Source of the DNA: an uncultured Actinomycetes bacterium
Lineage (GTDB): Bacteria > Actinomycetota > Actinomycetes > Nanopelagicales > Nanopelagicaceae
DNA length: 15,490 nucleotides
Assembly: GCA_903844585.1 (NCBI GenBank)
Contig: CAIMUD010000182.1
Location: 1-15,490, forward strand
Reading direction: 5' to 3'
Numbering within the stretch: the first letter of the stretch is position 1; each line of letters starts with the position of its first letter. This document shows, in pieces, positions 3,903-11,519 of this stretch. Below the pieces are notes generated by a model. It ran no database searches. It was not told the DNA's origin and saw only the letters and a list, made by a program, of their open reading frames with translations. Both the position numbers and the translations under genes were made by a program.

Positions 3903-4004
3903 CTTGCTCCGCCCTTCATTCGAATATTTCTCAATTGGTTCTAAATTGGACTAGTGGTTAAGTCTAAGGAAGTGAGACGATAGAGGCGAATTGAAGGCCT
4001 ACAT

Positions 4005-4013
4005 AGGAAGAGG
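4005..4013 (+). promoter_or_regulatory. Ribosome binding site that decides the copC start
   Basis: AGGAAGAGG ends four bases before GTG 4018. It favours this start over the in-frame TTG at 3991, which has only a weaker GAGG. Confidence 0.6.
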
Positions 4014-4017
4014 ATCT

Positions 4018-4542
4018 GTGAAACTCTCATCAGCCGCACGCATTTTAGCGGTGCTGGGCATCGCTGTTTTAACGGTCGCGCCCGCCTCAGCCAACACTTT
4101 AGTTTCTACCAGCCCAGTATCTGGTGCAACTATTAAGACAGCACCGAGTGCAATCACAATTACAACTGAACTGCCATTGCTTGATGCAGGAAATGAAATA
4201 GTTGTAACCGATCCTTCTGGAGCACGCGTTGATGATGGAACTTTAACAATTGTCAATAACGAAATTGTTGCCGGTATGAAAGCAATTTCAGTCCCAGGTA
4301 TTTATAAAATTACTTATTCGTTGCTGGCAGAAAATGATGTGCCTCTCAATGGCAGTTACACCTTTAACTATTCAACGCCGGTCCTAGAAACCCCAACAGC
4401 ATCTCCAGAACCAACTACGCAAGGGAAAATTGCTGGCAATAATATTGGAACAAGTATTTTTGCAATTGTACTTTTATTACTTGCGGTACTTGTAACTTTC
4501 GGACTCGCCTTATATGCCAGAAGGTTATATAGAGACCGATGA
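4018..4542 (+). CDS. Secreted, membrane-anchored CopC-domain protein lacking usual copper ligands
   Basis: From GTG 4018 the product has 174 residues. Residues 1-25 form a signal peptide (K2, R8, hydrophobic core, ASA before the cut), then a CopC-type beta-sandwich domain (TSPVSGATI at 31-39; PLNGSYTF at 109-116), a Pro/Thr/Ser linker at about 122-134, and a C-terminal membrane helix at about 145-166 with an RRLYRDR cytoplasmic tail. CopC proteins bind copper outside the membrane and work with CopD. The mature N-terminus here is Asn rather than the ligand His, and the DGH motif before P(V/L)xGSxxF is replaced by NDV, so the usual Cu(II) ligands are not present. The stop overlaps the copD-ctaG start by four bases (ATGA), so the two are translationally coupled. 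An alternative start at TTG 3991 would add nine residues before the signal peptide. Confidence 0.85.
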   Translation: MKLSSAARILAVLGIAVLTVAPASANTLVSTSPVSGATIKTAPSAITITTELPLLDAGNEIVVTDPSGARVDDGTLTIVNNEIVAGMKAISVPGIYKITYSLLAENDVPLNGSYTFNYSTPVLETPTASPEPTTQGKIAGNNIGTSIFAIVLLLLAVLVTFGLALYARRLYRDR

Positions 4543-6431
4543 AACTATTAGCAGCGGGAATTACCACTGCAAATCCTCTGATTGACTCCTTATCTACTGT
4601 AAGTAGATTCATTTCAATCACAGCCAGTTTTGCAACTGTAGGCGCGCTCTTAGCTATGGGCTTTTTACTATTTGATAAAGGCGGATTCCTGGGATTAACA
4701 GCGCTAAAACTTCGGGTCGTCGCATCGGTTTCTGCTTTAACATGGTTTATTGCAAGCGCGGCTCTTGTCATAACAAGCGTTGCAAATATTCTCGGCACTT
4801 CACTAAGTGATGCTTTTGATTTAAATACACTTAGGTCTTTCTTAACGCAAGTAACACTTGGTCAATATATGTTCTTTCAAACGCTAGTGGCAGCGCTAGT
4901 TGCTGTTGCTGTTCTACCAATCAAAAAAACGGGTGGAGCAATCGCGCTCCTATTGCTTTCAATTATTGGAATAATCGCGCCTGTTTTTCAAAGCCACTCA
5001 GCATCTAGTGGTTCACACGCACTTGCTATCGGTTCACTAGCTATCCACGTTATAGCGCTAGCTTTTTGGGTAGGCGGCGTTATCGCAATTGCTCTCTTAG
5101 ATAACGCTGATAGATCGATTGCGCTACCAAGGTTTAGCGCATTAGCGCTCTGGGCTGCAATCGCGGTCGTCGCTAGCGGAAGTGCAAATGCATGGGCACG
5201 AATGAATTTTGCGGCGGCATGGGAAACGGGCTATGCAAAAGTATTAATTTCTAAGGTTTTATTAACGGCGATTCTTCTCTACTTTGGTTATGAGAATAGA
5301 AAGAACTTAGCGCGCAAAAATTCGATCGATATGAAGGCCCTAGTTCAACTTATCTTTGCAGAAGTTTTTGTAATGATTATCGCGACTGTTCTTGGTTCGT
5401 GGCTTTCTTCACACCAGAGCCCAACCCCAAAAATTGAACCAGCCTTTGATGCTGCAGTTGCTGTTGCTGGTATTTCTAATCCAGGAGCACCAAATTTATG
5501 GAAACTCCTAACGCTTTACGATCCTGACGCATTTATCTTGGGCGCCATCATCGTTGCTGTTGCACTTTATATTAAGGGTGTCCGGGTACTTAGTAAGCGT
5601 GGAGATTCATGGCCAGTTGGACGCACTGTTGCATTTGCTCTTGGGATTGCCGCGATTGATTTTGCAACAAGTGGCGGACTCGGTGTGTACGCAAAGTTTT
5701 CATTTGAATATCACATGATTGCTCACATGGTTTTGGGAATGATTGCGCCAATTGGAATTGTGCTTGGAGCACCAATAACACTTGCACTTCGCACACTGCC
5801 TATAGGGCGAAACCCCGAAGAAAGAGGGGTCAGAGGAACGCTCATTACTCTGATGCATTCAAAGACAACTTCACTAATCACAAATCCAGTTGTAGTTCTT
5901 GCAATTTTTGATGGTTCACTTTTTATCCTGTACTTCACCTCACTCTTCGGCGGAATGATGCAATCGCATGCAGGGCATCTCTTTATGAATGTACATTTCA
6001 TACTTGCAGGGATTCTCTTCTTCCATGTGATTATTGGCGTTGATCCGAACCCTAGAAAAGTTCCGCATATTGTGAGAATCGTTATCCTTTTTGCTGCGAT
6101 GAGTATTCATGCCTTCTTCTCAATTGCTCTTATCTCAACATCAACACTTCTTGATCAGGGTTATTACAAATCACTTGAAAGCCCATGGTTAGGAGATTTA
6201 CTTGCAGATCAACATGCAGGAGGATCAATTGGATGGGCCATGGGAGAAATACCAATTCTTCTCGCACTCGTTGCAACATTTATTCAATGGATGCGTGATG
6301 ATTCAAGAGAGGCAAAACGAATTGACCGCAATGAAGCGCGCTTAGCTGCTTCGGGTGAGCCAGATGAATTGGCTGAGTACAACCTTTATTTGTCTAGGCT
6401 AAATCAGCGTGATGAGAAAACTAGTTCTTAA
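4539..6431 (+). CDS. CopD-CtaG fusion: copper transport / cytochrome c oxidase assembly membrane protein
   Basis: A 630-residue polytopic membrane protein. Residues about 15-290 are a CopD domain (SHALAIGSLAIH at 159-170 followed by a WVGG motif at 177-180). Residues about 325-590 are a CtaG domain of the caa3 type, with H392 and H396 in FEYHMIAHMVLG, H477, H480 and H486 around QSHAGHLFMNVH, H496, and the late DQHAGGSIGWAMGE signature near 557-570. The same fusion is known in other actinobacteria, including M. tuberculosis Rv0102 at similar length. It likely moves copper across the membrane and delivers it to the Cu site of cytochrome oxidase. The start overlaps the copC stop by four bases. 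The 3' end overlaps the convergent cyclo-ligase gene by 11 bases, leaving no room for a terminator. Confidence 0.93.
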   Translation: MKLLAAGITTANPLIDSLSTVSRFISITASFATVGALLAMGFLLFDKGGFLGLTALKLRVVASVSALTWFIASAALVITSVANILGTSLSDAFDLNTLRSFLTQVTLGQYMFFQTLVAALVAVAVLPIKKTGGAIALLLLSIIGIIAPVFQSHSASSGSHALAIGSLAIHVIALAFWVGGVIAIALLDNADRSIALPRFSALALWAAIAVVASGSANAWARMNFAAAWETGYAKVLISKVLLTAILLYFGYENRKNLARKNSIDMKALVQLIFAEVFVMIIATVLGSWLSSHQSPTPKIEPAFDAAVAVAGISNPGAPNLWKLLTLYDPDAFILGAIIVAVALYIKGVRVLSKRGDSWPVGRTVAFALGIAAIDFATSGGLGVYAKFSFEYHMIAHMVLGMIAPIGIVLGAPITLALRTLPIGRNPEERGVRGTLITLMHSKTTSLITNPVVVLAIFDGSLFILYFTSLFGGMMQSHAGHLFMNVHFILAGILFFHVIIGVDPNPRKVPHIVRIVILFAAMSIHAFFSIALISTSTLLDQGYYKSLESPWLGDLLADQHAGGSIGWAMGEIPILLALVATFIQWMRDDSREAKRIDRNEARLAASGEPDELAEYNLYLSRLNQRDEKTSS

Positions 6432-7006: not shown

Positions 7007-7012
7007 GTGATT

Positions 7013-7939
7013 ATGGCAGAGCAAGTACGCGTAGATGAGTTCCTCGCCGAACTCCTAGCAATTTGCCGCCCTCTCGAACCATTTAATATGGCACTTTTAG
7101 ATGCGCATAACGCAACTCTTGCAGAAGATATATATGCAGGCGAACGCCTCGTACTTAAAAAGGGTTCACGAATTCGTTCTACTCAAATTGGTCTTGCAGC
7201 TTCGATTGGAAGAGATCATCTTCCGACAAGACCGCATCCTCGCGTCGTTGTTTTATCTGCAGGCCCAGATCTAGTTGCACCAGGAAAAGATTTAGAAATT
7301 GGCGAAGAGTACGAGACGAATTCTTGGCTACTAACAACGGCTGTGCGCGAAGTTGGAGCTGTTGCATATCGAGTGCACACAATTCCAGATGATGAAGAGC
7401 AGCTACAAGCTGTAATCGAAGACCAGCTTGTGCGCGCGGACCTCATCATCATTAGCGGCGAGCGTCATAATGATTCATTCGATTTAATAACCCGAACTCT
7501 TTCGCGAATTGGCGAAATAAGAATTGCAGATATAGCAATTGAATCCAGCGGGCGACATAATTACGGTGTAATAGGTCCAGATAAAACTCCAGTCGTTACT
7601 TTGCCTGGAGATCCGATAGCTGCATATATTTCATTTGAACTTCTCATTCGCCCAATGATCCGTACGATGCTTGGGGCATCAACACTTCACAGGCCATCAG
7701 TTAAAGCAAAACTTGAAAAGCCTGTTAAGTCATCCGGTGGATTTCGTTCTTATGTGCGCGCAGTTTTATCGGAAGACGGAAAGTCTGTTCTGCCACTTAA
7801 TGAAACTGGTTATAGCGCGCAAGACGAACAAGCTGCGCTTTCGGATGCAAATTCTTTTATTGCAGTTCCTGAAGGAGAAACGGAGATTGCTGCCGGAAAA
7901 GAAGTCACCGTTGTGGTTCTAGAGCGCAGATATATTTAA
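7013..7939 (+). CDS. glp: Gephyrin/MoeA-like divisome protein Glp, lacking domain II
   Basis: The 308-residue protein aligns by eye with MoeA/gephyrin-E proteins but is about 100 residues short. The N-terminal helix (about 1-42, ending LAEDIYA) runs straight into GERLVLKKGSRI, so the segment carrying the DNSAMDGYA motif and domain II of MoeA is absent. A MoCF-type domain III follows (PRVVVLSAGPDL at 76-87, SGERHNDSFD at 148-157, TLPGDPIAA at 196-204), then domain IV (about 222-308). The molybdate/pterin loops are changed from the usual SGGVSxGxxD and LPGNPV. In Corynebacterium the equivalent protein is reported as Glp, an FtsZ-binding division protein acting with the membrane receptor GlpR. 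The genes immediately downstream, rimJ and a GlpR-like protein, give the same context. I infer a divisome role rather than molybdenum cofactor synthesis. Confidence 0.8.
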   Translation: MAEQVRVDEFLAELLAICRPLEPFNMALLDAHNATLAEDIYAGERLVLKKGSRIRSTQIGLAASIGRDHLPTRPHPRVVVLSAGPDLVAPGKDLEIGEEYETNSWLLTTAVREVGAVAYRVHTIPDDEEQLQAVIEDQLVRADLIIISGERHNDSFDLITRTLSRIGEIRIADIAIESSGRHNYGVIGPDKTPVVTLPGDPIAAYISFELLIRPMIRTMLGASTLHRPSVKAKLEKPVKSSGGFRSYVRAVLSEDGKSVLPLNETGYSAQDEQAALSDANSFIAVPEGETEIAAGKEVTVVVLERRYI

Positions 7940-8512
7940 ATGAATTCACGCTGGCCCATCACTCTGCAAAGTAATGAAATCACATTGCAGCCACTTCGCT
8001 TCCGTGATCGAGGTAGATGGGCAAACGTGAGAGCCGAAAATCGCGAATGGTTATCACAGTGGGAGGCAACTCTTCCAAGAGTTCCTGGTATGGAATTTTA
8101 TCAACAACTCCCTTCATTTTTAGAAATGTTGCGTTCTATAAATTACGAAGCAAGAAATGGACGCTCATACTCACTAATGATTTGGCACGAAAACAATTTG
8201 ATTGGCCAAATAACTATGGGTGGCGTTACTTATGGAGCAATGCGTGGGGCGCACATTGGATACTGGATTGATCGCAACTATTCAAACCGAGGATTTACAA
8301 CGTCAGCTGTGAGCCTATTAACCCAATACGGATTTAGTGAATTAAAGCTGCACCGTATTGAGATCAACGTACGCCCCGAAAACGCTGCATCAATTCGCGT
8401 AGCCGAAAAGGCGGGCTATGTTTTCGAAGGGGTACGCCCACGGTTTCTGCACATCGATGGCGCATGGCGAGACCACCACTGTTTCGTAAAAGAAAATGAG
8501 CTAATTATTTAG
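7940..8512 (+). CDS. rimJ: RimJ-like GNAT N-acetyltransferase
   Basis: A 190-residue GNAT protein of the RimJ/RimL type, which transfers acetyl from acetyl-CoA to protein N-termini. The acetyl-CoA-binding segment is seen as RNYSNRGFTTSAV (112-124), and the C-terminal half has the usual NxxS...AEKAGY pattern (N148, S151, 155-160) followed by EGVRP. The ATG directly follows the glp stop codon with no gap, so the two are co-transcribed and probably translationally coupled. The same position between the MoeA-like gene and the GlpR-like gene is known in mycobacteria (Rv0995, annotated rimJ). Ribosomal protein S5 is the classical RimJ substrate in E. coli; a substrate among the neighbouring divisome proteins is possible but unsupported by anything in the sequence. 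Confidence 0.85.
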   Translation: MNSRWPITLQSNEITLQPLRFRDRGRWANVRAENREWLSQWEATLPRVPGMEFYQQLPSFLEMLRSINYEARNGRSYSLMIWHENNLIGQITMGGVTYGAMRGAHIGYWIDRNYSNRGFTTSAVSLLTQYGFSELKLHRIEINVRPENAASIRVAEKAGYVFEGVRPRFLHIDGAWRDHHCFVKENELII

Positions 8513-8523
8513 CGATTTTTAGG

Positions 8524-8549
8524 CCCTGAAATCCACGAAGGTTCAAGGG
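8524..8549 (+). other. Imperfect hairpin between rimJ and glpR
   Basis: CCCTGAA (8524-8530) can pair with TTC-A-AGGG (8542-8549), giving seven pairs with one bulged A and an 11-base loop. No T-run follows, so it is not a standard terminator. It may be an attenuating or RNA-stability element, or chance. Confidence 0.25.
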
Positions 8550-8557
8550 TGCTCCTC

Positions 8558-8563
8558 TAATCT
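8558..8563 (+). promoter_or_regulatory. Possible -10 element upstream of glpR
   Basis: TAATCT lies nine bases before the glpR ATG in a 60-base gap, with no purine-rich ribosome site close to the start. An internal promoter giving a very short leader is plausible; no -35 element is clear. Confidence 0.35.
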
Positions 8564-8572
8564 AGATACATC

Positions 8573-9352
8573 ATGGCTTCAGGAATCATCTACCTCGCAA
8601 TAATTGGCATGTGGGTTGCCTATTTTTTGCCTCGCTGGGTACATGATCGAAATGAGTTTTCTGGAAAGAGCGTAGAGAAATATAAGAGCGCACTTCGAGT
8701 GGTTGCTAACTCAACTCCAGGATCTAGTTCGAATTCCGGAATCTTAAATATTGATTTGGACCATGAAGCAAAAGTTGCTCAACGACTTATGCGCAGAAGA
8801 ATTATTTTTTCAATAATCACACTCTCATTAATCATGACAATGGCAGGTGCATATATGCAAACTTTGGCGTATTCATTTATCGCTCTTCCGGTGGCTGGCT
8901 TCTTTTTATATATTGCATATGTCAGGCGTCAAGAGAACACTGAACGCATACAACAGCGACGAGTCAAGAATTTGCATCGCGAATCGTCAGGTGTTTCTTC
9001 AACAAATCTTGCAGATGTGGTTGCACCTAAACCTTCAACTGAACATTGGATCCCGCTTTCGGAGCGCGAACTTTCAGGGGTTGTAATTCTTCCTAAGGGA
9101 ACAGCAGCAGCAAATAGAAATGAATGGGAACCAAACTCTGTTCCGGTGCCTACTTATGTAAACGCTCCAAAGGCTGTGACTCCAAAGCGAGTAATTGATT
9201 TAACTAACCCTGGCGAATGGACAGAGGAGCAAGAACGACTTGAACGTGAAGCTCTTGCTGCTGCAGCGCCGTCTCGCGATGAAGTATTTGATCAGCAATT
9301 AGCAGATGAAGCTGTTGATAAAGTGCGTAAAAATCGCGCAGCAAATCAGTAG
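8573..9352 (+). CDS. glpR: GlpR-like membrane receptor of the gephyrin-like divisome protein
   Basis: A 259-residue protein with a short N-terminal membrane helix (about 3-19) followed by YFLPRWVHDR, a soluble loop, two adjacent helices (about 77-116) and a long hydrophilic C-terminal tail of about 140 residues. The topology and the FLPRWVH signature match the actinobacterial membrane protein encoded after moeA-rimJ (Rv0996-like), described in Corynebacterium as GlpR, the membrane receptor of Glp. Two short stretches stand out in the otherwise disordered tail: WEPNSVPVPTYV at 185-196 and DLTNPGEW at 209-216, followed by an acidic helix. These are candidate Glp-binding motifs by inference. The symbol is not the glycerol repressor of the same name. 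The stop lies four bases from the convergent pmt stop. Confidence 0.78.
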   Translation: MASGIIYLAIIGMWVAYFLPRWVHDRNEFSGKSVEKYKSALRVVANSTPGSSSNSGILNIDLDHEAKVAQRLMRRRIIFSIITLSLIMTMAGAYMQTLAYSFIALPVAGFFLYIAYVRRQENTERIQQRRVKNLHRESSGVSSTNLADVVAPKPSTEHWIPLSERELSGVVILPKGTAAANRNEWEPNSVPVPTYVNAPKAVTPKRVIDLTNPGEWTEEQERLEREALAAAAPSRDEVFDQQLADEAVDKVRKNRAANQ

Positions 9353-9356
9353 GTAA

Positions 9357-10628
9357 TTAGATCCAAGAAGGCAACCACATGTGTTGTCGCCAAGCGTCAT
9401 ACGTGATTACATCCGCAGTGTAAAGCGGCATGAAGTAAATGAAGTTGAGCGCAATTACGATTAATAGCGCAGCCATAAGTGATATTGCTACGCGACTATT
9501 TTTTGCTTTTTCAAACCAGAGCCAAGCGCAATAAGTGAGTGCAAGAATCAAAAAAGGTTCGAAAACAATTGCATAAAAAGAAAAAACTGTTCGTTTTTGA
9601 AAGAAGAACCAAGGCAGATATCCAGCAACCAAACCACTCATAATTAAAGTGAGCGCTGGATCAATTCGTCTTTCGAATAAAGATTTAGTCCAAATTGCTA
9701 CAACTACACACAATGCAATTGTCGCACTCCACCATAAGAGCGGAGTGCCCAGTGCTAGAACTTCTTGTGCGCATGCATCAGCTCCGCACCCTTTGGGGGA
9801 TTCATAAAAGAAAGAAGTAGGGCGCCCCATCACTAACCAACTCCAAGGATTTGCTTGGTAACTGTGTTTATCTGTTAGCCCAGTATGAAATCCAAGCATT
9901 TGCTTGTGATAGTAAATAAATGAAGTTATTGGGTTGCTTGACCAATCACGATCCCAACCCCGATTGCTCTTAAACCAGCCAAACCATGAAGTTACATAGA
10001 TGGACAGAGGAAGTAGACCATATTGAGCAGCGACTATCGCGCTTGGTTTTAGAAGTCGCTTCCCACTCCCGCTAGTAAAGACTTTGTAAAGTGAAATAAA
10101 TCCAAATACCGCAACAAAGTAGAGAGCGCTCCACTTTGTTCCGAGCGCCAATCCGAAGAATAGTCCGGTAAACCAGTGCCATTCTTTGATGAAGAAATAA
10201 GCAGCTAATAAAATAAAAAACGCTAAGAAATTATCTAATAAAGCAGTGCGCGAATGCACAAGTGCCAATCCATCAAGGGACATCAGCGCACTAGCAAGAA
10301 TTGTTAAAACCTGGGAATGGAAGAGTTCGTGCGCGATAAGTGCGATGAGAACAATCATGAGAGTGCCAACTAGCGCACTCATAAATCTCCAACCAAAAGA
10401 GTCGTTGCCAAAGAATTGGATTCCAGCTCCAATTAGCCATTTACCTACTGGCGGATGAACGATGAATTCTGGTTTGAGCCCATCAACTTCTACGCCGTAT
10501 TTCAGTAGATCTCGTGCACCGTCAACATAATAAATTTCATCAAATACGAGTGAGTTGGGTCTGCCCAAGTTGATGCTGCGCAGTAAGAATGAGTAGAGAG
10601 TGATTACTCCTACAAAAATTATCTGCAT
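9357..10628 (-). CDS. pmt: Polyprenyl-phosphate-mannose-protein mannosyltransferase
   Basis: A GT39-type integral membrane enzyme that transfers mannose from polyprenyl-phosphate mannose to Ser/Thr of exported proteins. The 423-residue product shows VFDEIYY at 28-34, where D30 and E31 are the catalytic acidic pair of the first extracytoplasmic loop, HPPVGKW at 58-64, about ten membrane segments and the usual C-terminal PLYTADVITYDAWRQHMWLPSW region. I chose ATG 10628 because it sits just before the first helix and six bases after TACTCT. The in-frame ATG at 10793 would run far into the divergent rsmI gene and adds residues with no membrane or family character. It is divergent from rsmI, as Rv1002c is from Rv1003. 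The cytoplasmic N-terminus is very short compared with mycobacterial homologues. Confidence 0.9.
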   Translation of the reverse strand: MQIIFVGVITLYSFLLRSINLGRPNSLVFDEIYYVDGARDLLKYGVEVDGLKPEFIVHPPVGKWLIGAGIQFFGNDSFGWRFMSALVGTLMIVLIALIAHELFHSQVLTILASALMSLDGLALVHSRTALLDNFLAFFILLAAYFFIKEWHWFTGLFFGLALGTKWSALYFVAVFGFISLYKVFTSGSGKRLLKPSAIVAAQYGLLPLSIYVTSWFGWFKSNRGWDRDWSSNPITSFIYYHKQMLGFHTGLTDKHSYQANPWSWLVMGRPTSFFYESPKGCGADACAQEVLALGTPLLWWSATIALCVVVAIWTKSLFERRIDPALTLIMSGLVAGYLPWFFFQKRTVFSFYAIVFEPFLILALTYCAWLWFEKAKNSRVAISLMAALLIVIALNFIYFMPLYTADVITYDAWRQHMWLPSWI

Positions 10629-10634
10629 GAGATA

Positions 10635-10640
10635 AGAGTA
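10635..10640 (-). promoter_or_regulatory. -10 element of pmt, probably leaderless
   Basis: TACTCT on the minus strand, six bases (TATCTC) before ATG 10628, in a 48-base divergent gap shared with rsmI. It has the same geometry as purU and glp. On the opposite strand GAAGAT (10665-10670) is also six bases before the rsmI ATG but matches TANNNT less well. Confidence 0.45.
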
Positions 10641-10676
10641 AGTGTGATTAAGTGAAAAAACTGAGAAGATAGCGCC

Positions 10677-11519
10677 ATGGCCCTTACTCTTGCTGCAACC
10701 CCGCTTGGTAATCCTGGGGATGCAAGTCCACGGCTTAAGCGCGCCATTGAGAGCGCAGAAATAATTGCTGCCGAGGATTCGAGGAGATTTCATAGACTTT
10801 GCTCTGATATTGAAATCACTTTTACTGGGCGAGTTATTTCTTTTTTTGACGGAAACGAAACTGCACGCACCGAAGAAGTTTTACAACTGCTTCGAGAGGG
10901 CAAAAACGTATTAGTTGTTTCTGATGCAGGAATGCCAACAATTAGTGATCCAGGATTTAGGCTGATGCGAGATGCCATTGCAGAAAATATTGATGTAAAA
11001 GTTATTCCTGGTCCAAGTGCGCCAACGATGGCAGTTGCACTTTCTGGGTTGCCAACAGATCGATTTACATTTGAAGGATTTTTACCTCGAGCAAGTGGTG
11101 CAAGGAACTCTTTGCTTAATTCGCTTAGATTCGAAGAGCGCACGATGGTTTTCTTTGAAGCACCTCACCGATTAAAAGAGTCGCTGCAAGATATATTGGA
11201 AGTTTTCGGTTCAGACCGCAAAGGTGCAATTTGTAGAGAGATGACAAAGACTTACGAAGAGACCATTCGCGCAAACGCAGCAGAACTTCTTAAGTGGGCA
11301 TCTGCGAATGAAATCTTGGGTGAGATAACACTTGTGATTGAAGGCGCGAGCACGGGATCAGCGGCTAAGACTTCTACGGAAATGGTCGCGCGCGTTCGTG
11401 AATTTGAAGCCGCGGGGATGGACCGAAAAACAGCAATCGCCACAGTTGCAGAAGAATTTGACCTGCCAAAGCGAACCGTTTATGCAGCAGTTGTTGATGC
11501 GAATAAGATGGGCTCGTGA
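10677..11519 (+). CDS. rsmI: 16S rRNA (cytidine-1402-2'-O)-methyltransferase
   Basis: RsmI methylates the 2'-hydroxyl of C1402 in the ribosomal decoding centre using S-adenosylmethionine. The 280-residue product has the family N-terminus (TPLGNPGD at 8-15, AAEDSRR at 31-37), the SDAGMPTISDPG motif at 82-93, PGPSAP followed by GLPTDRFTFEGFLPR, and a C-terminal helix-turn-helix-like tail (LPKRTVYAAVVDAN). There is no strong ribosome site, so initiation may be leaderless or nearly so. It is the first gene of the rsmI-metG-tatD-rsmA-ispE run, and its TGA overlaps the metG GTG by four bases. Its position beside pmt matches mycobacteria. Confidence 0.95.
   Translation: MALTLAATPLGNPGDASPRLKRAIESAEIIAAEDSRRFHRLCSDIEITFTGRVISFFDGNETARTEEVLQLLREGKNVLVVSDAGMPTISDPGFRLMRDAIAENIDVKVIPGPSAPTMAVALSGLPTDRFTFEGFLPRASGARNSLLNSLRFEERTMVFFEAPHRLKESLQDILEVFGSDRKGAICREMTKTYEETIRANAAELLKWASANEILGEITLVIEGASTGSAAKTSTEMVARVREFEAAGMDRKTAIATVAEEFDLPKRTVYAAVVDANKMGS

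Follow-up and report, generated by a model that had tools for sequence, protein, structure and literature searches.

The closest described protein to the one considered here is Glp of Corynebacterium glutamicum (Cgl0883, PDB 8bve/8bvf), for which the structural account gives domain II as residues 46-145 and domain I as residues 20-45 plus 146-181, places the putative active site at the distal dimer interface, and describes binding to FtsZ via a domain IV hairpin at the dimer centre, the same hairpin being needed for GlpR binding (PMC10522489). A published view holds that Glp in general lost catalysis (PMC11733289). In gephyrin, subdomain II (SDII) is reported to hold half of the substrate site and to make filament contacts, and its removal to leave receptor binding intact while abolishing filaments and synaptic clustering (PMC12441120). 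These facts imply that catalysis and filaments can be lost together with domain II without loss of the partner sites; as SDII-less gephyrin fails to cluster at synapses, the loss is not harmless there. Among the papers found in searches of open-licence PMC text, none describes a Glp without domain II in its title or abstract opening.

The 15,490-nucleotide stretch of actinobacterial DNA analysed here (the window) carries a gene whose product shares with C. glutamicum Glp domains I, III and IV, a Pro-rich hinge 2 and an adjacent glpR (PMC10522489), and differs from it in lacking domain II and in having a shorter FtsZ hairpin without M361/Y369; unlike in C. glutamicum, DivIVA was not found in the window’s order. 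It resembles the gephyrin E domain as a MoeA-derived, likely scaffold, and the domain it lacks is the one removed in the engineered SDII deletion; unlike in engineered gephyrin, the loss is natural, bacterial and order-wide, in a gene kept under selection (PMC12441120). With E. coli MoeA and plant Cnx1E it shares the fold of domains I, III and IV; unlike them, it has neither domain II nor the catalytic loop motif and is kept where MoaC was not found.

A glp-like gene without domain II

The gene (7013..7939, + strand) has an ATG start and encodes 308 amino acids comprising domains I, III and IV, with domain II absent; an alternative GTG start at 7007 gives an ORF of 310 aa (7007-7939), and the frame contains no stop or frameshift. 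Pfam matches to the protein are MoCF_biosynth and MoeA_C, without MoeA_N. Its best curated NCBIfam family is Glp_gephyrin (NF045515), to which it aligns over model positions 139-403 of 403 with 274 bits, below the curated cut-off of 475, and its best PDB match by sequence is C. glutamicum Glp (8bve), covering 147-415. A six-frame search of the window for a DN.AMDGY-like motif found none.

In a 107-row alignment, from which 19 fragmentary, distant or redundant rows had been removed beforehand, the sole large gap inside the window protein spans 103 columns and follows residue 43. At this gap 82 of the 107 rows, the window protein included, have no residues, one row has 4, and the 24 full-length rows have 95-103; the zeros of one locus masked at the gap (L113) and of two partial ones (L027 and L043) carry little weight. 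Up to residue 43 the protein aligns with the N-terminal part of full-length Glp, and the alignments place the domain II site of full-length relatives at the codons for residue 43 (G) and residue 44 (E) (7139..7144, + strand). Given the published limits of domains I and II, the cut takes out domain II and little or nothing else; in the predicted structure, strands 40-42 and 45-48 flank the junction and meet there. A clean in-frame junction takes the place of domain II, of about 103 residues, and this loss is natural. The preliminary description, made from the letters of the window, had proposed an in-frame loss of about 100 residues carrying DNSAMDGYA and domain II, and the clean ORF and the shared junction, which also emerges from the survey of related genomes that it had suggested, confirm this. 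Its statement that a core of domains III and IV is left was wrong: alignment, published limits and predicted structure agree that domain I is kept, the core being I + III + IV.

Only the short length of the protein speaks for an assembly error, a frameshift or a decaying pseudogene. Against this stand the identical junction in so many aligned rows; the Glp matches starting at model positions 137-144 in at least 144 listed genomes of the order (at least 155, then at least 157, with further surveyed genomes); and the strong purifying selection on short Glp, which is strongly indicated by dN/dS values of 0.015-0.049 in six pairs, with dS saturated. The preliminary description would have taken full-length copies at the same locus in close relatives as the sign of a local assembly error; none turned up, full-length copies being seen only in a sister lineage within the order and in other actinobacteria. 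We regard the chance of such an artefact as negligible and reject it. A domain II encoded elsewhere in the genome was likewise rejected, MoeA_N being unmatched in 158 of the 232 genomes of the order.

Several features tie the protein to Glp. Hinge 2 (P-x-P-R, residues 74-77; 7232..7243, + strand) matches the Pro-rich linker of Glp; the P.PR pattern recurs in 24/24 full-length and 81/83 short loci, and the RPHPR of the window protein is missing in three acI MoeA paralogues. A Glp-specific domain III motif identified by motif comparison, EDQLVRAD (residues 136-143; 7418..7441, + strand), has equivalents in all 24 full-length loci, 81 of the 83 short loci and 2 of 15 other MoeA-like rows. An eroded catalytic loop, SGERHNDSFD (residues 148-157; 7454..7483, + strand), replaces [ST]GG[VT][SA]xGxxD, and a domain IV hairpin (residues 245-261; 7745..7795, + strand) lies at the position of the C. 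glutamicum FtsZ-binding hairpin and is shorter here. Membership in Glp is thus backed by the Pro-rich hinge, the clade and the glpR neighbourhood, and not by the score, the full set of domains I-IV or the M361/Y369 loop; of the marks of a MoeA molybdotransferase, both the DNSAMDGY-type domain II motif and the domain III catalytic motif are missing. Since the protein falls short of the Glp family in score, domains and loop residues, we name it a Glp-derived, domain-II-less variant, which probably works like Glp.

Gene neighbourhood and the Moco genes

The gene order in the window is glp - rimJ - glpR - pmt - rsmI. A RimJ-like GNAT acetyltransferase gene (7940..8512, + strand) starts directly after the glp stop codon, and 47 of the 48 nearest loci have a rimJ-like ORF in the same orientation downstream of glp, the remaining locus ending there. 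It is followed by a gene for a SepX/GlpR-like membrane protein of 259 aa (8573..9352, + strand), so that the Glp-RimJ-GlpR context put forward earlier is borne out. This protein matches NF050099 with 102.6 bits, below the curated cut-off of 150, which was reached in none of the 232 genomes of the order; its closest described counterpart is Streptomyces SepX, of the GlpR family (PMC8748795), in keeping with its resemblance to NCBIfam SepX_GlpR_2. Its hydrophobic segments lie near residues 1-23, 76-95 and 97-117 (by Kyte-Doolittle only), and its first cytoplasmic loop is short, with about 50 residues where C. glutamicum has 192. A GlpR-like gene is present in 45 of the 48 nearest loci, the other three ending shortly after glp. 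Within the otherwise variable tail, a 71-row alignment picks out a conserved stretch, PVPTYVNAPKAVTPKRVIDLTNPGEW (residues 191-216; 9143..9220, + strand), as a candidate Glp-binding peptide.

Elsewhere in the window, the O-mannosyltransferase ORF (9357-10793) overlaps the beginning of the opposite-strand rsmI (10677-11519) and probably has its real start further inside. Upstream of glp lie a protein resembling carboxynorspermidine synthase (1206-2456; 198 of 800 bits, far below the cut-off), a tRNA-Arg with a CCT anticodon (2568-2641, + strand), a small ORF without an NCBIfam match (3991-4542) and, after it, a gene for a 630-aa protein in which CopD-like and CtaG-like parts, both below curated cut-offs, are joined (4539-6431).

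A new observation is that in a sister lineage the gene for full-length Glp adjoins moaC and a moaB/mogA-like gene, with rimJ and glpR following downstream. The locus of one of its genomes, G032, reads galU - glp (404 aa) - moaC - moaB/mogA-like - (rimJ) - glpR - pmt - rsmI, with galU, pmt and rsmI named from sequence and the full order read in L158. The moaC gene adjoins glp in all 20 class loci (L079-L098) and all four full-length loci of the order (L049-L052), and in none of 75 short loci (L001-L048, L053-L078, L103). The domain III catalytic motif is found in 24/24 full-length loci, a set that leans towards conserved copies because most are best-scoring ones, and in 0/83 short loci, which include several loci of one genome and a few fragments; C. 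glutamicum Glp keeps domain II and has lost the motif. At the locus of the short lineage, the molybdenum-cofactor (Moco) genes, domain II and the catalytic motif of domain III are all gone, while the Glp-specific motif and glpR persist, and loss of the enzyme part of Glp is close to certain.

Across the 232 genomes, 71 match both MoaC and MoeA_N, 2 MoaC alone, 3 MoeA_N alone and 156 neither. Glp matches occur in 151 of these 156, in 147 of them together with GlpR, so Glp persists in genomes in which neither a Moco pathway nor a domain II can be detected; by co-occurrence, Moco-making genomes mostly have a separate full-length MoeA. The MoaC, MoeA and FtsZ content of the window’s own genome is read from its relatives. 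In four genomes (G031, G032, G033 and G039; L049-L052, L158) the sole MoeA_N match is the full-length Glp, which MoaC adjoins; Glp may therefore itself be the Moco enzyme there, with incomplete genomes a caveat, and one protein may serve both Moco synthesis and division.

Distribution and phylogeny of the short forms

The 48 nearest loci belong mostly to uncultured actinobacteria, several of them titled Ca. Planktophila. The closest to the window Glp is L001 (92% identity); Ca. Planktophila lacus, placed in Ca. Nanopelagicales by the NCBI taxonomy, is at 85%. Some nearest loci are titled Streptomycetaceae or Bifidobacterium breve, yet are equally close matches; three titled B. breve (L013, L014, L016) have a Glp 81-83% identical to that of the window, and these titles look like mislabelled metagenome bins. 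In the order of Ca. Planktophila lacus, 227 of the 232 genomes match Glp, a tally in which fragments are counted, as is at least one genome (G161) whose match is to MoeA alone; four reach the cut-off, all full length, and G030, where the end of a contig holds an N-terminal fragment matching MoeA_N, perhaps has a fifth full-length copy. Among the best 120 database proteins, 119 have 303-318 residues, and the remaining one, of 364 residues, also lacks domain II. In a survey of the class, 222 of 296 genomes had a Glp copy over the cut-off. Follow-up covered 32 low-scoring genomes outside the order (10 + 22, 2 of the 22 being over the cut-off) and found a domain-II-less Glp in G343 only, the others having longer matches, matches split by contig or frame, or MoeA-like ones.

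We built the Glp tree without the domain II columns and left out the acI MoeA paralogues, the contrast with MoeA being drawn from family scores and motifs. The short Glp of the order fall together in a single clade (100/100), which the full-length L049-L052 join (100/99), and the window protein branches inside the Glp clade, nested with these full-length sequences. A second short set, consisting of G343 and 88 of its best 120 database matches (299-318 residues), stands apart in the tree. In the order of G343, at least 16 genomes have a Glp match starting at model 143-145; those listed are all 1.3-1.8 Mb, and 11 of the 16 listed have MoaC. GlpR in the second clade was seen in one locus (L103), and a predicted structure of the second type (pLDDT 91.0) superposes like the first.

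Both clades come from small genomes, and the program warned of long branches in the Glp trees, which may meet; these points could be read as a single loss of domain II, with one group wrongly split by the tree. The AU tests reject a single clade of all short proteins (p 0.0203, and 0.000364 with more rows), the junctions differ (4-5 residues in the second clade, 16 rows aligned, versus 0 in the first), and a Glp over the cut-off occurs in 75 of the 145 genomes of the order to which the second clade belongs. We therefore consider one shared loss improbable. Judging from these sequence comparisons, the second short clade probably arose separately and domain II was apparently lost twice. The second clade can also be joined to nine particular full-length rows without rejection (p 0.0783), which leaves more than one candidate for its sister.

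Predicted structure and probable role in division

The window Glp is predicted to fold with confidence (pLDDT 89.4, pTM 0.89), and its model, in the superposition recommended by the preliminary description, fits MoeA and C. glutamicum Glp: among the rows listed it superposes on E. coli MoeA, Cnx1E, gephyrin and C. glutamicum Glp over 283-302 residues, and on archaeal MoeA over 255-288. The rmsd is 2.0-2.4 to closed MoeA-type forms and 3.1-3.3 to open C. glutamicum Glp, a comparison made with a single-chain model and weak on hinge angle.

The known FtsZ-contact residues are mostly not conserved in short Glp, and neither the window protein nor most other short rows have counterparts of C. glutamicum M361 and Y369. 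FtsZ was found in 11 of the 12 genomes searched and keeps its conserved C-terminal peptide in the relatives: ten sequences of the order end in (D/E)(L/I)D(V/I)PDF(L/M)K, and that of G343 ends in LSVPDFLR. DivIVA/Wag31 is a known partner of GlpR. It was matched (PF05103, E <= 0.001) in 0 of the 232 genomes of the order and in 7 of 14 controls, C. glutamicum included, so that part of the known network is missing. If this absence is real, these actinobacteria are without the usual polar scaffold.

The reading we favour, and think probable, is that short Glp is a dedicated, non-catalytic, Glp-derived adaptor of the divisome, in which contact with FtsZ is retained only perhaps; a scaffold role as such is likely. 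The ancestor would probably have been a full-length Glp beside moaC and moaB/mogA, active in Moco synthesis and tied to GlpR. Comparison of the loci shows three changes on the stem of most of the order, in whatever succession: departure of the Moco genes from the locus, in-frame loss of domain II and decay of the domain III catalytic loop. The remaining domains I + III + IV would form a small adaptor, probably a dimer, that ties together the membrane protein GlpR and, perhaps, the tail of FtsZ at the division site; by analogy with SDII-less gephyrin, it would retain receptor binding and form no subdomain-II filaments. The order-wide absence of domain II, the nesting with full-length Glp, the pattern of lost and kept motifs, the persistence of Glp without detectable Moco genes, the glpR gene kept next door, the conserved FtsZ tails, purifying selection and the confident fold speak for such an adaptor, as do the domain IV contacts of C. 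glutamicum Glp and the receptor binding of SDII-less gephyrin; the shorter hairpin, the missing M361/Y369, the sub-cut-off score, the resemblance to closed forms, the clustering defect of SDII-less gephyrin and the failure to find DivIVA in the order speak against it, as does C. glutamicum Glp itself, whose catalytic loop is degenerate in a full-length protein.

The changed residues of the FtsZ hairpin could also belong to a cytoplasmic protein that partners GlpR and no longer binds FtsZ, stabilising GlpR or orienting it in relation to the membrane while other proteins contact the Z-ring, and the conserved GlpR gene and tail motif and the retained Glp-specific domain III motif would fit this too. 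We think it unlikely, as the FtsZ tail is conserved in the relatives and a single hairpin serves both FtsZ and GlpR in C. glutamicum. A metabolic role, for instance as a MoeA remnant that binds a small molecule or molybdate, draws on the retained MoCF_biosynth fold and is very improbable given the absence of the catalytic motif from every short locus, the persistence of short Glp in genomes without detectable MoaC or MoeA_N, and the linkage to glpR. Returning to the divisome adaptor, its wider form is more tentative, and we would put it at somewhat below an even chance: a bifunctional Glp that twice lost its enzyme half, once in each of two small-genome lineages, would leave natural counterparts of SDII-less gephyrin, scaffolds working without subdomain-II filaments, in the first lineage also without DivIVA/Wag31, with multivalency supplied by the FtsZ polymer or by GlpR.

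Because Glp and GlpR are kept where no DivIVA was found, our results suggest a core role in the divisome rather than a link to the elongasome. A Moco-active Glp in the four full-length genomes, if true, contradicts the published general loss of catalysis. A domain-II-less, probable division scaffold of Moco-enzyme descent occurs in many small-genome freshwater bacteria. The loss of domain II shows which part of such proteins is the enzyme and which the probable scaffold; if short Glp does serve in this way, it sets the two functions apart within the gephyrin family, raises the question of whether a bacterial scaffold needs subdomain-II filaments, and provides structural studies with a compact construct made by nature.
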